Assembly (NCBI GenBank): GCA_945873875.1
Contig: CAMCER010000053.1
Span: 1 to 5,883 of the forward strand
Reading direction: 5' to 3'
Length of the DNA stretch: 5,883 nucleotides
From: an uncultured Clostridia bacterium
GTDB taxonomy: Bacteria; Bacillota_A; Clostridia; Peptostreptococcales; Anaerovoracaceae
The notes beneath the pieces are model-generated. The model had not been told where the DNA came from and ran no database searches. It was given only the letters and a program-made list of their open reading frames with translations. Positions within the stretch are counted from its first letter, which is position 1, and the number at the start of each line of letters is the position of its first letter. Shown one piece after another: positions 1-5,857 of the stretch. The position numbers and the translations under genes were made by a program.

Positions 1-3000
1 TCTCATGGCCTCAATTGCGGTCTTATTGACTCCGGCTCTTGACTGGAGCTCCTCTACAGTAGTGAACTCTTTCTTCCTGTACTCTTCCTCGATGGCTTTC
101 CCGGCGCTTTCACCCAGGCCTGCAAGGGCGCACAGCGGTACCTGGACCTTCCCGTCTTTCACGGTAAAGTGAACGGCTTCAGAGTCCTCTAAAGAAGGCT
201 CGCTGAAGCTGTAACCTCTGGAATACATCTCGTAGGCCAATTCGAAAGGCACTATCTCATCGACCTCTTTAGGCGTAGCATTCTTTCCCTTTCTCAGCAC
301 TGCGTCCATCTGATCCAGTATCGCCTGCGGACCCCTCTTTATGACGTCCCAGTTGAAGTCGTTTATCTTGGCGGTGAAAAGCACCGCATAGAATTCTCTG
401 GGATAATACACCTTATACCAGGCGATCCTGTATGACATGATCACATAAGCCACCGCGTGAGCCCTCGGGAACATGTATGAAATGAGCTTGCATGATTCAA
501 TGTACCATTCCGGCACGTCATGCTCCTTCATGGCTTTTTCCTCTTCCTCCGTCAGGCCTTTGCCCTTCCTTACGTGCTCCATTATGGTGAATGCCTGGTT
601 ATTAGGCACATCTTTCAGGATAAGATAGTTCATGATGTCGTCACGGGTGGATATGGCATCCTGCATGGTGGCCTTGCCCTCTTTTATGAATCTCTGGGCA
701 TTATCGAGCCACACGTTAGTGCCGTGGGAGAATCCCGATATCCTGACAAGGTCGCCGAACCTCTTAGGCTGTGTGTCGTCCAGCATCTGTCTTACGAACC
801 TGGTGCCGAACTCAGGGATGCCGTAGCTTCCGTGAGTGAACTGGTAATTCTCATCCTTTATATCAAGGCCTTCGATCCCGTTGAAAATGCCGTTTACTCT
901 CTCGTCTTTCAGAGGCACGGACAAAGGATCTATGCCTGTCATATCCTGCAGCTGTCTGATCATAGACGGGGCATCATGGCCCAGTATATCCAGCTTCAGC
1001 AGGTTCTCATCGATGGAGTGATAATCAAAGTGAGTGGTCACGATATCCGTGTTCACATCGTTGGCAGGATGCTGCACCGGACAGAACTCATATATCTCGT
1101 GGCCTTCAGGCACGATGATTATTCCTCCAGGATGCTGGCCTGTGGTCCTCTTGACTCCCACGCAGCCTCTTAAGAGTCTTTCTGTCTCGTATTTGTTTAC
1201 AGGTATATTCTTCTCTTCGGCGTATTTCCTGACAAATCCGAAAGCGGTCTTATCCATGATGGTGCCTCTGGTCCCCGCCTTATATACATTGCCGCTGCCG
1301 AAGATGGTCTCCACGTATTTATGGGCTTTTGCCTGATACTCTCCCGCGAAGTTAAGGTCGATATCAGGTTCCTTGTTTCCTTCGAATCCCAGGAATGTCT
1401 CAAATGGTATGGTGAATCCGTCCTGCTTCATCTTCGTGCCGCACTCAGGGCAGTTCTTCTCCGGCATATCCACACCGCAGTCATACTCATTCTCATCTCC
1501 CCACTCAAGGTGTTTGCAATTCGGGCAGATGTAGTGAGGCTTCAGTGGATTTACTTCCGTGATCCCCGCCATGGTAGCAGCAAAAGATGAACCTACTGAT
1601 CCTCTGGAGCCTACCAGGAATCCGTCGGAAAGCGATTTCTGCACCAGCATCTCTGCGCTGACATACATGACCGCATAACCGTTGCTTATTATGGAGTTCA
1701 GTTCTTTTTCCAGCCGTGCTCCTATAGGCTCAGGCAGAGGGCTTCCGTATATGGCTTCTGCCCTTTCGATACATCTGGTCCTTAAGGTCTCTTCCGCGTT
1801 CTCGATCTTCGGCGGGAATTTGCCTTTTGCGATAGGTATTATATCTTCGATCTGGTCAGCGATGGCGCCGGGCACATCGATTACTATCTCTTTCGCTTTT
1901 TCTTCTCCCAGATATGAGAATTCATCAAGCATCTCATCTGTGGTGCGGAAGTAGAGTCCCGGATTGGTGTCCTTGAATCCCTGCCCTGTCAGGAGTATAT
2001 CCCTGTAGATGCTGTCCTCTTCGTTTATGTAGTGTGTGTCGCAGGTGGCCGCCACCGGAAGACCGCACTTTTCTCCCAGCTGGATGACCTTTCTGTTGAG
2101 ATCCTTAATATCCTCTTCACTTCTCACCAGCGGATATTTCTCGCTGGCTATCATGAACCTGTTGTTTATGAGAGGCTGTATCTCAAGATAATCATAGAAC
2201 TGCGCTTTTTTCATCTGCGTTTCCAGAGGCTCTCCTGCCGAGATGCTCCGGTACACTTCTCCGGCCTCACAGGCAGATCCCAGTATAAGGCCTTCCCTGT
2301 ACTTTGCTATGACTGACTTGGGCATCCTGGGCCGTTTATAGAAATAGTCCAGATGTGAGATGGAAACCAGCCTGTAAAGGTTCCGCAGCCCCGTGTAGTT
2401 CTTAGCCAGCAGTATAGCGTGGTTGTATCCGTGAGCCTTGTAATCTATATTCCCTTCTTCGTCGATATATCCTTCATCATCGTAAAGATAGGCTTCCACA
2501 CCGTAGATGACTTTTATATCCAGTTCCTTTTCCTTCAGGCCGAAACCGTATACAGTGTGGGCTGCGTCAGGAAAGGACTGGACCACCCCGTGATCCGTTA
2601 TGGCGATGGCCTTGTGCCCCCATTTCGCCGCCTGCTTTATCAGGGCTTTAGCATCGGAAAGACCGTCCATGGCGCTCATCTTGGTGTGGGCATGAAGCTC
2701 GACTCTCTTTTCAGAGGCTTCGTCTTTACGCTCTTTCACCTCTCCCTTTTCCAGATTCTTTATCATGATGATCAGTTCGTTCTCGAAAGTGTCGAACTGG
2801 ACCTCGCCTTCAGCCCTGACGGCGTCGCCTTCTTTCAGGTTTTTATTTATATCATCCCACTTCTTTTCTGTGGCGAATGTTTTCAGACAAATGGAGCTTC
2901 TGCCGTCTGTTATCAGCAGTTTCACCAGTTTGGATCCGCTCTTTATGGTCCGCTCTTCTTTTTCGAAAAGGACACCTTCCACTACAGCGTTTCCCTTCTC

Positions 3001-3753
3001 CACATCAAGTTCTGAAAAAGGCGTAGCCTGTCCGGTTATGGGCCTTCCCATTATCTTGTTGCCCTCTACAGGATCTTCCTTGGGCTTTCTCCTGTATCCG
3101 TTCCACTTCTGCTGCCCGCCGCCTTCGCCGGACTGCGCAGCATGCTTTTCCGGCTGCTTCTTTTCGGCTTCGGCGTGCTTTCTTGCGCTTTCTTCAAGCT
3201 CCTTCCTGTCCTTTTCCTTCAGAGACTCTCTGGTCTTCTGCCAGGTCTCCTCGTTATTGAGAAAAGTCACTTTCCTTTGTCTTACAGGAAGCTCTTTCAG
3301 CATTATCCCGAACAAAGGCGCCACATCTTTATTCAGATTGTCAGCTGCCATCTGCCCTACAGCATATATCTTTATCTCGTCATCAGACACTTCAGTCCTC
3401 TCGGGCATTATGGTCCTGGTTATGTGGGCATAGTCTCCGTTGGCGCGGATGATCATGTGCTCCACGAAGAGTCTTATGGCATCTTCCTCCGGCTGCACCA
3501 GTTCCTCATACTCGTATTTCAGACATACTTTTTCTATGCCGCCCATGCCGTCTGCGCTGTTTATCTTTTCCATGACTGTGCTGCAGACAGCCTCGTGGCT
3601 CTCATAGGGCACAACAAAATTGAGTCCCAGAGTTATACTGAGACTCTTTCCGTCTTTGGCAACTGCCGCGTCTTTTATACTGAACTCTCCGTTTTCCCTT
3701 GCGCCTTCACCGGCCATGTCCCACCGGATGGCGCTTTTTATAACATCTATCAT
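1..3753 (-). CDS. polC: DNA polymerase III PolC-type alpha subunit lacking the exonuclease domain (3' end outside window)
   Basis: This is the replicative DNA polymerase of low-GC Gram-positives, acting at the fork with the sliding clamp and clamp loader. I translated 1251 codons from ATG 3753 with no stop; by comparison with Bacillus PolC only some 15-20 C-terminal residues are missing. Domains in order: N-terminal domain about 1-160; a Lys/Glu/Gln-rich linker about 172-231; OB fold about 235-345; PHP domain about 350-575, with HAH 354-356 and TDH 386-388; the palm with GSRGSVGSS from 715 and catalytic Asp 797 and 799 (PDIDLNF) and 922 (LDILGHD); zinc-type cysteines 743, 746, 768 and 771 (with an extra Cys 759); the conserved YMFPRAHA at 1093-1100; and a helix-hairpin-helix-like GLGESAGKAI from 1212. 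The DnaQ-like exonuclease normally inserted in PHP (a DVETTGL-type motif) is absent, so the projected length is about 1270 residues against about 1437 in B. subtilis (from memory). It is the last gene seen in the operon and overlaps ispG by 4 bases. The identity is certain; the missing domain is read directly from the translation. Confidence 0.98.
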   Translation of the reverse strand, partial: MIDVIKSAIRWDMAGEGARENGEFSIKDAAVAKDGKSLSITLGLNFVVPYESHEAVCSTVMEKINSADGMGGIEKVCLKYEYEELVQPEEDAIRLFVEHMIIRANGDYAHITRTIMPERTEVSDDEIKIYAVGQMAADNLNKDVAPLFGIMLKELPVRQRKVTFLNNEETWQKTRESLKEKDRKELEESARKHAEAEKKQPEKHAAQSGEGGGQQKWNGYRRKPKEDPVEGNKIMGRPITGQATPFSELDVEKGNAVVEGVLFEKEERTIKSGSKLVKLLITDGRSSICLKTFATEKKWDDINKNLKEGDAVRAEGEVQFDTFENELIIMIKNLEKGEVKERKDEASEKRVELHAHTKMSAMDGLSDAKALIKQAAKWGHKAIAITDHGVVQSFPDAAHTVYGFGLKEKELDIKVIYGVEAYLYDDEGYIDEEGNIDYKAHGYNHAILLAKNYTGLRNLYRLVSISHLDYFYKRPRMPKSVIAKYREGLILGSACEAGEVYRSISAGEPLETQMKKAQFYDYLEIQPLINNRFMIASEKYPLVRSEEDIKDLNRKVIQLGEKCGLPVAATCDTHYINEEDSIYRDILLTGQGFKDTNPGLYFRTTDEMLDEFSYLGEEKAKEIVIDVPGAIADQIEDIIPIAKGKFPPKIENAEETLRTRCIERAEAIYGSPLPEPIGARLEKELNSIISNGYAVMYVSAEMLVQKSLSDGFLVGSRGSVGSSFAATMAGITEVNPLKPHYICPNCKHLEWGDENEYDCGVDMPEKNCPECGTKMKQDGFTIPFETFLGFEGNKEPDIDLNFAGEYQAKAHKYVETIFGSGNVYKAGTRGTIMDKTAFGFVRKYAEEKNIPVNKYETERLLRGCVGVKRTTGQHPGGIIIVPEGHEIYEFCPVQHPANDVNTDIVTTHFDYHSIDENLLKLDILGHDAPSMIRQLQDMTGIDPLSVPLKDERVNGIFNGIEGLDIKDENYQFTHGSYGIPEFGTRFVRQMLDDTQPKRFGDLVRISGFSHGTNVWLDNAQRFIKEGKATMQDAISTRDDIMNYLILKDVPNNQAFTIMEHVRKGKGLTEEEEKAMKEHDVPEWYIESCKLISYMFPRAHAVAYVIMSYRIAWYKVYYPREFYAVLFTAKINDFNWDVIKRGPQAILDQMDAVLRKGKNATPKEVDEIVPFELAYEMYSRGYSFSEPSLEDSEAVHFTVKDGKVQVPLCALAGLGESAGKAIEEEYRKKEFTTVEELQSRAGVNKTAIEAMR
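2422..2493 (-). other. Short linker replacing the PolC exonuclease domain
   Basis: This stretch encodes PolC residues 421-444, between the PHP metal ligand Glu420 (YGVE) and His445 (NHAILLAKN). In standard PolC the DnaQ-like exonuclease sits exactly here. This copy has only 24 residues, rich in Asp, Glu, Gly and Tyr, with none of the exonuclease motifs (no DxE, no HxAxxD). The flanking PHP segments align well with Bacillus PolC from memory and stay in one frame, so this looks like a clean domain absence rather than a frameshift. Confidence 0.9.
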
Positions 3754-4814
3754 TCAAAACCCTTTATCATGTTTATCATCTCTATGGCTATGTTCTGTTC
3801 AGATACAGTCTTCACTGTCTCCCCTCTGACAAAGATCACGCCTTTGCCTTCTCCGCAGGCGACTCCTATATCTGCGTCCTTTGCTTCTCCCGGGCCGTTG
3901 ACAGCACATCCCATGACCGCTACTGTTATTCCTCTCTTGCCCTGAAGTGTCCGCTCTTTTTCGATAGGCTCAAGAGCTCTCTGTATCTCCGTTGCTATCT
4001 CCTGGAGATTGACCTTTGTCCTTCCGCATGTAGGGCAGGACACCAGATTTATGGATTCCTTTTTCAGTCCGATAGCTCTCAGGAGTTCTTTGGCGAAGAC
4101 CACTTCCGTCACAGGATCCGCCGTAAGGGAGACCCTCATAGTATCGCCTATGCCTGCCAGAAGAAGAGCTCCTATGCCGGCTGCCGACTTGATCTTTCCT
4201 CTGTGGACAGTTCCTGCCTCGGTTATGCCGATATGTATGGGATGATCAGTCTTGTCCGCAACGATCATGTGGGCATCGTAGTTCATCTGCACATCTGAAG
4301 ATTTCAGTGATACCACCAGATTATCGTAGCCCATGTCCTCTATGAGTTTGAGATTGTTCAGGGCGCTTTCGGCAAGTCCTTCTGCAGTCACGCCGCCGTA
4401 TTTTTTCAGTATGTCCTCTTCAAGTGATCCGGAATTTACGCCGACTCTGATGGGAATGTTCTTTTCCTTAGCTGCTTCCACTACTTCCCGGACCTTCTCT
4501 TTCGAACCGATGTTTCCCGGGTTTATGCGGATCTTGTCAGCCCCCATCTGTATGGCTTTTATGGCCAGCCTGTGGTCAAAGTGTATGTCCGCCACGATGG
4601 GCACCGGGCTCATCTCTTTGATGGACTTCAGCGCCTCTGCGCTTTCCATGTCAGGCACCGCCACTCTCACGATCTGACATCCTTCTTCTGCCAGGTCGTT
4701 TATCTGCATGGCAACAGCCTTTATATCCTTAGTGTCTACATTAGTCATGGACTGGATGGAAACAGGTGCTCCGCCTCCGATAGTCACATTACCGCATTTT
4801 ACTGCCTTACTCAT
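3750..4814 (-). CDS. ispG: 4-hydroxy-3-methylbut-2-enyl diphosphate synthase (IspG/GcpE)
   Basis: This is the iron-sulfur enzyme of the MEP isoprenoid pathway that reductively converts 2-C-methyl-D-erythritol 2,4-cyclodiphosphate to HMBPP, in the cytosol, using ferredoxin or flavodoxin electrons. The protein has 354 residues, a normal length for the bacterial two-domain form. The N-terminal TIM-barrel part (about 1-245) carries the family signature IGGGAPVSIQSMTN near 12-25, ADIHFD at 75-80 and KIRINPGN at 94-101. The C-terminal part binds the [4Fe-4S] cluster through Cys260 and Cys263 (SCPTCGR) and Cys303 (GCAVNGPGEA), with Glu310 as the likely fourth ligand. ATG 4814 is the right start: an in-frame TGA lies at 4820-4818, and the next Met is at residue 23, inside the conserved core. 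It lies between rseP (35-base gap) and polC (4-base overlap). Nothing in it looks damaged, and I see no reason to doubt the call. Confidence 0.98.
   Translation of the reverse strand: MSKAVKCGNVTIGGGAPVSIQSMTNVDTKDIKAVAMQINDLAEEGCQIVRVAVPDMESAEALKSIKEMSPVPIVADIHFDHRLAIKAIQMGADKIRINPGNIGSKEKVREVVEAAKEKNIPIRVGVNSGSLEEDILKKYGGVTAEGLAESALNNLKLIEDMGYDNLVVSLKSSDVQMNYDAHMIVADKTDHPIHIGITEAGTVHRGKIKSAAGIGALLLAGIGDTMRVSLTADPVTEVVFAKELLRAIGLKKESINLVSCPTCGRTKVNLQEIATEIQRALEPIEKERTLQGKRGITVAVMGCAVNGPGEAKDADIGVACGEGKGVIFVRGETVKTVSEQNIAIEMINMIKGFE
3760..3765 (-). promoter_or_regulatory. Ribosome binding site of polC inside ispG
   Basis: The minus strand reads AAAGGG, six bases before ATG 3753. It lies within the last codons of ispG. 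The polC ATG and the ispG TGA share an ATGA overlap at 3750-3753, so translation of polC is probably coupled to that of ispG. Confidence 0.6.
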
Positions 4815-4849: not shown

Positions 4850-5857
4850 CTATCCTGCAAAAAGTCTTGAAATATCGTTCCAGGTCACATATACCATAAG
4901 CGCCAGCAGAAGCATTATGCCTACGAAGTGGACCTTGGCTTCTGCAGACTGTGTAACACGTTTCCCTGTTATCTTCCTTATCACCAGGAACACCAGTCTT
5001 CCCCCGTCAAGTGCCGGGAATGGAAGAAGGTTGAACAACCCCAGATTCAGGCTTATGAAAGCCGCAAGATAAAGGAACGTCGACGGGCCGTTTTTCCCTG
5101 CGTCACCTGCTACCTTCACTATGGCCACTGGACCGCCAAGCTGGTCCATGCCCACCTTGCCTGTGAATATCTGCCTCAGAGCATCGCCCAGAGTGCTGAT
5201 CATCCTTCCTGTACTCTTCACACCTCCCGCTATGCAGGAGAAGAAATTGTGAGATATGCCGCATTCTATGCCGATGACCGCGCGGCCGTCATCTGACTTT
5301 TCCACTTTGCTGCTTATGGTTTTCTGACTGCCGTTCCTGTCTACTGTTATCTTTACCGTATCTCCCGGTTCAGCGGCTCCGATGATGCCGATGACATCAG
5401 CCCATTCTTCTGTCTCATGACCGTTTACTGCTGTAATGGTATCGCCTTTCTGTATCCCTGCCTCCTGGGCCGGACTGCCGTCTACGACTGCCGCCAGAGA
5501 TGTGGTGGCAACGCCTGTATAGAAAGTGAGCCCGATTATTATTACAAGAGCCACCAGGAAATTCATGGCAGAGCCTGCCGCAAGGATTATGGCTTTCTGC
5601 CATGCCGGCTTGTTGTCGAAGGCCCTTGGGTCGTCTGACTCTTCATCCTCGCCTTCCATGGCGCAGTAGCCTCCGATAGGCACTGCACGCAGAGCATAGA
5701 GGGTCTCGCCTTTCTGCTTCTTGTATATGGCAGGCCCCATTCCCATGGCAAACTCGTTGACCTTTACGCCGCACGCCTTTGCCGTGAGGAAATGTCCCAG
5801 CTCATGAGGGAATATCATGAGGCAGAATATCAAAATGCCGCATATAACTGTTATCAC
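4850..5857 (-). CDS. rseP: Site-2 intramembrane zinc metalloprotease, RseP/RasP family
   Basis: This is a membrane-embedded protease that cuts transmembrane segments after a first site-1 cleavage. In Firmicutes, relatives act on anti-sigma factors and leftover signal peptides; the substrate here is unknown. The 335 residues show the family plan: a first membrane segment about 3-17 running into the zinc motif HELGH at 18-22 (catalytic Glu19); a conserved GEDEESDDPRAF stretch at 69-80; a second membrane segment about 90-112; one PDZ domain about 115-200 (DGSPAQEAGIQKGDTI at 126-141); a third segment about 258-280 leading to the second active-site motif LLPFPALDGGR, where Asp284 is the third zinc ligand; and a last segment about 308-326. 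The start is GTG 5857: no other start is visible upstream in frame, and Met14 would cut the first membrane helix. A proline directly before HELGH is a small oddity. The GTGA overlap with the preceding frame suggests coupling. Confidence 0.96.
   Translation of the reverse strand: MITVICGILIFCLMIFPHELGHFLTAKACGVKVNEFAMGMGPAIYKKQKGETLYALRAVPIGGYCAMEGEDEESDDPRAFDNKPAWQKAIILAAGSAMNFLVALVIIIGLTFYTGVATTSLAAVVDGSPAQEAGIQKGDTITAVNGHETEEWADVIGIIGAAEPGDTVKITVDRNGSQKTISSKVEKSDDGRAVIGIECGISHNFFSCIAGGVKSTGRMISTLGDALRQIFTGKVGMDQLGGPVAIVKVAGDAGKNGPSTFLYLAAFISLNLGLFNLLPFPALDGGRLVFLVIRKITGKRVTQSAEAKVHFVGIMLLLALMVYVTWNDISRLFAG

Follow-up and report, generated by a model that had tools for sequence, protein, structure and literature searches.

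A clostridial PolC without its DnaQ exonuclease and with an intact PHP site as candidate proofreader

The polC locus and its missing exonuclease

The window, by which we mean the whole stretch of 5,883 nucleotides that was analysed, comes from an uncultured Clostridia bacterium of the Anaerovoracaceae. It holds three genes, all on the minus strand, encoding an rseP-type protease, IspG and PolC. The features were as follows.

1–3753, minus strand: polC, PolC-type DNA polymerase III alpha lacking the DnaQ exonuclease; 1251 residues within the window, about 1268 at full length
2422–2493, minus strand: linker, residues 421–444, at the Exo position of other PolCs; 24 residues, AYLYDD ... NIDYK..YN
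2218–2700, minus strand: PHP domain, uninterrupted, residues 352–512 (Pfam)
2032–2694, minus strand: nine PHP metal-site residues, H354, H356, D363, H388, E420, H445, C495, D572 and H574 (HHDHEHCDH)
2749–2985, minus strand: OB-fold domain, residues 257–335 (Pfam)
1441–1527, minus strand: four-cysteine zinc motif, C743, C746, C768 and C771 (alignment of PolC rows)
988–1365, minus strand: presumed polymerase catalytic aspartates, D797, D799 and D922 (motif)
532–969, minus strand: finger domain, residues 929–1074 (Pfam)
4–204, minus strand: helix-hairpin-helix (HhH) region, residues 1184–1250, truncated by the window end (Pfam, HHH_6)
3750–4814, minus strand: ispG (GcpE), upstream neighbour of polC (ORF and Pfam)
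4850–5857, minus strand: rseP-type, PDZ-containing M50 protease, second gene upstream of polC (ORF and Pfam)

The stop codon of ispG overlaps the start codon of polC in an ATGA (window 3750–3753), suggesting translational coupling. The polC reading frame runs off the window edge at residue 1251. Protein P0001, which is 99% identical to the window PolC, is 1268 aa at full length, in agreement with the length of about 1270 that an earlier note on this DNA had projected for a clean loss. Pfam searches of the window protein matched OB, an uninterrupted PHP, DNA_pol3_alpha, finger and HHH_6, in the domain order of PolC (OB N-terminal to PHP; Pol3; finger; C-terminal HhH). P0001 scored 1319.3 bits on the NCBIfam model TIGR01405 (cut-off 1043.45) and 1464.5 bits on NF001688 (cut-off 873). 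The Pfam domains, together with the conserved four cysteines (CCCC) and three aspartates (DDD), bore out the claim that polymerase core, OB fold and zinc motif are intact. By their motif, D797, D799 and D922 are presumably the catalytic aspartates, and the Q-M-C-M-F at the C-terminus of P0001 is presumably a motif of the clamp-binding type. Named homologues of the window PolC came from Anaerovorax, Sinanaerobacter, Aminipila and Anaerovoracaceae, which suggests an origin of the window in or near the Anaerovoracaceae.

The translation passes from Glu420 to His445 through residues 421–444 only, exactly the 24 residues first noticed at 2422–2493. The DnaQ-type exonuclease (Exo) was also missing by profile search: PF00929 (RNase_T) matched neither the window protein (E ≤ 0.001) nor P0001 (threshold E 10, although most matches weaker than about 0.1 are discarded by the filters of HMMER). 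We compared the Glu–His spacing across 109 clostridial PolC loci (112 minus the duplicates L026 and L106 and minus L027, which has an internal stop). The spacing was 197–219 residues in 53 Exo-bearing PolCs and 13–38 in 56 Exo-less ones, with nothing between; because the loci were picked to cover both kinds, 56 to 53 is no frequency. It was 21–24 residues in all of the best 120 of 7947 homologues. Locus L027 (genome G057), outside all PolC-locus counts, is an Exo-less polC interrupted by a single in-frame TAG, reflecting either sequencing error or decay.

The earlier note had asked whether the exonuclease segment was dropped in assembly. The architecture was identical in the best 120 of 7947 homologues, in an 88% identical metagenome-assembled genome (L003) and in isolates, the linker having the same length in Clostridium aminobutyricum DSM 2634 (L001) and Gallibacter intestinalis DSM 108706 (L004). 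Loci L001, L002, L003 and L004 are separate sequence records, and the P0001 cluster, which is marked as including the window’s own protein, comprises 18 sequences from 9 contigs. Relatives with the same architecture thus rule out an assembly or annotation artefact, to which we assign a negligible probability. With PF07733, the genomes of five relatives each gave a single PolC-type match and a single DnaE-type match; the DnaE-type polymerase, present in 5 of 5, may be DnaE1 or DnaE3.

The window PolC belongs to a variant known since 2013, and the observation is correct yet not new. In the relevant passages of Timinskas et al. 2013 (PMC3919608), Exo is absent in 6% of PolCs, all but one of them from Clostridia or Negativicutes. 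Because this variant had already been described there, to define PolC by its DnaQ exonuclease, as the earlier note did, was too strict. As those passages present it, the published variant shares with the window PolC the PolC domain order, a PHP domain uninterrupted by Exo and a clostridial host, and has a DnaE-type polymerase alongside, as in the window’s relatives; nothing essential differs. In canonical PolC (Geobacillus kaustophilus 3f2b; 9qpc), by contrast, the DnaQ Exo is inserted in PHP, and both sequences align an Asn with D572, whereas the window’s PHP site is complete. A passage of PMC5636811 describes one residue of the PHP zinc site of G. kaustophilus PolC as mutated. The PHP-proofreading DnaEs (M. 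tuberculosis DnaE1, 5lew/7pu7; Thermus DnaE, 2hpi/3e0d) form a different polymerase group. Compared with them the window enzyme has the PolC domain order and an N-terminal OB, and its activity is predicted from sequence. The earlier note’s title, which spoke of a lost built-in proofreading exonuclease, should better read ‘without its DnaQ exonuclease’, since another built-in candidate, the PHP domain, is retained intact.

Open-licence literature yielded no study counting Exo losses or testing PolC PHP activity in Clostridia, and an open-licence search found none on the PolC of Anaerovoracaceae. Beyond the published passages, we add a tree-based loss count, a linker comparison, a PHP-site count in Exo-less rows, and empty polC sites.

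Distribution and history of the Exo-less state

Genomes were called Exo-less where the PolC match was continuous through the Exo point and Exo-bearing where it was broken there. Among the matches listed for 60 genomes of the C. aminobutyricum family, 36 were Exo-less, 7 were Exo-bearing, 15 were without a PolC match and 2 (G026, G030) had fragments only and stayed unclassified; G036, G057, G023, G037 and G003 were Exo-less by match coordinates alone. Among the matches listed for 118 genomes of the order, 17 were Exo-less, and the 16 that were placed (G036 being left out) all fell in the window’s clade. The matches listed for 118 genomes of the class also included 17 Exo-less ones, 4 in the window’s clade and 13 at two other places; G175, continuous over the Exo point and outside these 17, is a possible eighteenth. 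Genome completeness is unstated, so absences weigh less than presences.

The searches also turned up unusual PolC-like ORFs. Genome G277 carries a 756-residue mini-PolC (L239, 3228–5495, minus strand) that starts at PHP and has the polymerase core, without Exo, OB or HhH. By eye its nine PHP site residues are present; a 338-residue ORF (5499–6512) lies just upstream, and the genome’s other PolC is seemingly Exo-bearing, judged by a broken match. Two Exo-less genomes hold divergent PolC-like ORFs, of 426 residues in G045 (L237, 1082–2359, minus strand) and of 504 residues in G023 (L238, 3353–4864, minus strand). These are 34–39% identical to parts of the window polymerase and are possibly mobile-element polymerases or decayed copies. 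In G126, a 1425-residue PolC frame is accompanied by another PolC-like ORF (L240, 874–4263, plus strand), which has 1130 residues, includes Exo and is preceded by a 354-residue ORF in another frame.

Trees were built from the core domains after the linker columns had been taken out. In them, Exo-bearing PolCs surrounded and interrupted the Exo-less ones, which formed at least two well-separated clades, and the window PolC nested among Exo-bearing PolCs. The 64-row family tree was drawn without near-copies and without the other two Exo-less clades; the 49-row tree dropped a further 15 rows, and the 29-row mixture-model tree and 40-row class tree used chosen rows. Exo-bearing L082 and L083 were placed inside the family’s Exo-less group, and well-supported branches across the class gave at least three changes of Exo state (40-row tree). 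The sister of L082 varied by sampling, being the L040 group in the 64-, 49- and 29-row trees and L034 in the 40-row tree and in the tree placing the order and class rows. A single Exo-less origin in the family was rejected (AU p = 0.00185, 49 rows, LG+G4; p = 0.0098, 29 rows, C20 mixture), p values that presuppose a group named before the tree was seen. Joining the class’s two other Exo-less clades as one was weakly rejected (p = 0.044, 40 rows).

A different history may underlie L082 and L083, namely one loss followed by one regain of Exo from a close relative. Their Exo domains grouped with that of L084 (SH-aLRT 87), and with those of L116 and L117 too (95). Because this agrees with the core trees, retention is preferred over regain: L082 and L083 would have kept Exo, with loss repeated elsewhere.

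The linker sequences bear on the same history. In most of the window’s clade the linker has a head, GY/AY-x-x-D-D, and a tail, I-D-Y-K...N, just before the His. The same head and tail stand at the Exo edges of Exo-bearing L082, L083, L084 and L086 (tail of L082, SIDYKSKETN|H; of the window, NIDYKAHGYN|H), and the window linker thus retains both edges of the Exo insertion seen in its nearest Exo-bearing relatives. The linker of the window’s clade looks like the scar of a deleted Exo. The L092 group kept a D-Y-K/R tail, and the scar was missing in the L096–L104 group and in family members L048, L052 and L090. Exo-bearing PolCs around the Exo-less ones, together with the scar, show that the Exo-less state is derived; Exo loss is secondary and appears to have happened more than once. 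The comparison that the earlier note had proposed, mapping gain or loss on a tree of relatives, came out for repeated, secondary loss, with the regain just described as the lesser alternative.

Candidate proofreaders

RNase_T (PF00929) was matched in 26 of the 60 family genomes: 7/7 Exo-bearing (within PolC), 13/36 Exo-less, 6/15 PolC-less and 0/2 unclassified. The 13 Exo-less genomes speak for a separate DnaQ/epsilon-type exonuclease that proofreads for PolC in trans, as does the RNase_T protein of G003, the nearest relative sampled (88% identical PolC), which is split over two adjacent frames (L008/L009) by sequencing error or decay. Against such a partner, no RNase_T match was obtained in the other 23/36 Exo-less genomes, though the search found all 7 PolC Exo domains, nor in the isolate Gallibacter intestinalis (G004). 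The search likewise found none in 9/15 PolC-less genomes; named controls were matched in 10/14 genomes, which limits its sensitivity for trans nucleases.

We then scored 23 loci and 2 PolC controls with a profile made from 53 PolC Exo domains. A PolC-Exo-like protein was present in G040 (167 bits) and in G008 (89 bits, covering 75 of 212 positions), which again favours a partner in trans. The other 11 of the 13 Exo-less genomes scored only 17–67 bits, against 265–274 for the two controls, and a PolC-Exo-like DnaQ partner is thus no general replacement. The RNase_T proteins inspected among these 11 look like exoribonucleases of the KapD/ERI-1 type. Proofreading of PolC by a DnaQ-type enzyme in trans is, on balance, quite improbable.

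The other candidate lies within PolC itself. All nine PHP metal-site residues are present in the window PolC. None of the 56 Exo-less loci, and none of the best 120 of 7947 homologues, departed from HHDHEHCDH; the two sets overlap and both contain near-copies. Neither the CCCC zinc motif nor the DDD triad was broken in any of the 229 rows counted (56 Exo-less loci, 120 P proteins and 53 Exo-bearing loci). The PHP site was also intact in 51/53 Exo-bearing PolCs; only 2 of 109 loci (L159, L160), both Exo-bearing, had it broken, and both losses together occurred in none. Because conservation is equally high in Exo-bearing PolCs, it indicates no specific compensation, and 2/53 against 0/56 broken sites are too few to prove reciprocity. 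L159 and L160 are themselves the reciprocal of the window’s case, with Exo kept and the PHP metal site broken.

A complete PHP zinc site is the proofreading exonuclease of M. tuberculosis DnaE1, according to a passage of PMC5636811. A pyrophosphatase activity of the E. coli DnaE PHP domain is reported in PMC4822814, and an intact site could serve other hydrolysis, which would count against a proofreading role. No exonuclease measurements for any clostridial PolC PHP domain were found in open-licence literature. Of the three options first considered for this organism, another activity is favoured, albeit one still built in through PHP; DnaQ in trans did not hold as a general rule; and the Exo-less organism may replicate with lower fidelity.

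PolC, DnaE and the replication fork

Two Clostridia that lack PolC are named in a passage of PMC4070872. In C. aminobutyricum polC sits between ispG and rimP. The surroundings of ispG were inspected in 13 of the 15 PolC-less family genomes (G043 had no ispG match and G019 was left out), and none of these 13 stretches, several of them short or ending near ispG, contained a polC match. In seven of the 13 (G031, G042, G050, G048, G041, G011, G006) rimP was found on the same contig as ispG, and the contiguous interval separating the two genes lacked polC (L225, L226, L227, L228, L230, L231, L236); in G048, G041 and G006 this interval measured about 120–160 bases. By eye, the L225 contig also has a pfkA-like gene on the opposite strand and L226 a MATE-like transporter. 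In a DnaE tree of 57 rows (three short rows dropped), 3 changes sufficed for the 13 PolC-less rows, compared with 11.8 on average after shuffling, and a four-row clade (SH-aLRT 100) joined two PolC-less with two Exo-less rows. The midpoint root of this tree is a drawing aid and does not establish whether Exo or PolC was lost first. The DnaE PHP site was complete in 13/15 PolC-less and 31/36 Exo-less rows, nearly all others having gaps there. The Glu–His spacing was 20 in 52 of 54 readable DnaE rows (60 rows in total), compared with 24 in the window PolC.

PolC might then have been demoted, with DnaE copying the genome and the Exo-less PolC an auxiliary, perhaps lower-fidelity enzyme heading to loss. 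That 15 of the 60 family genomes gave no PolC match among those listed would fit, as would the seven contiguous ispG–rimP intervals and the clustering of PolC-less rows in the DnaE tree with its mixed clade, and a passage of Timinskas et al. 2013 (PMC3919608) asks whether DnaE1 may replicate in genomes with PolC and DnaE1. Such decay is at odds with the Asp triad, zinc motif and PHP site kept in every Exo-less row counted. It is also at odds with the clamp-type motif, as we presume it to be, at all seven Exo-less C-termini inspected. Moreover, the midpoint-rooted tree gives no loss order, and the assemblies of three of the 15 genomes (G019, G024, G028) are doubtful, as an intact DnaE match is missing there too. 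We consider demotion unlikely.

We favour, as the probable reading, that Exo was deleted from a clostridial PolC whose own PHP domain proofreads at the fork beside a PHP-intact DnaE. Comparison and trees support the deletion of the DnaQ-type Exo from a genuine clostridial PolC during evolution. The deletion would have left a short loop beside the PHP active site, near in length to the counterpart loop of DnaE. Proofreading in the 3'–5' direction would be kept by PolC’s own PHP domain, whose nine-residue trinuclear-zinc site is preserved and whose activity is predicted. The DnaQ module would have been dispensable in a clostridial PolC that was already equipped with a redundant proofreader. At the fork, the Exo-less PolC would cooperate with the clamp and act alongside a DnaE whose PHP site is equally intact, as observed in relatives and expected for the window’s genome.

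A longer history is possible, which we put forward tentatively: a stepwise dismantling from PolC with DnaQ and PHP, through repeated deletion to PHP alone, to excision of polC between ispG and rimP with DnaE and its PHP proofreader as the sole replicase, the steps being visible next to each other within this one clostridial family.

The class of Exo-less PolCs has been in print since 2013, and in the passages found its mode of proofreading goes without explanation. That the PHP site was never broken among Exo-less PolCs, and that a trans DnaQ was often undetectable, narrows this question. A natural Exo-less enzyme, like the Exo-deleted 3f2b chain, makes PHP proofreading testable without a confounding DnaQ. 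If the stepwise dismantling is true, the family would be a natural experiment on changing the replicative polymerase and the type of proofreading.
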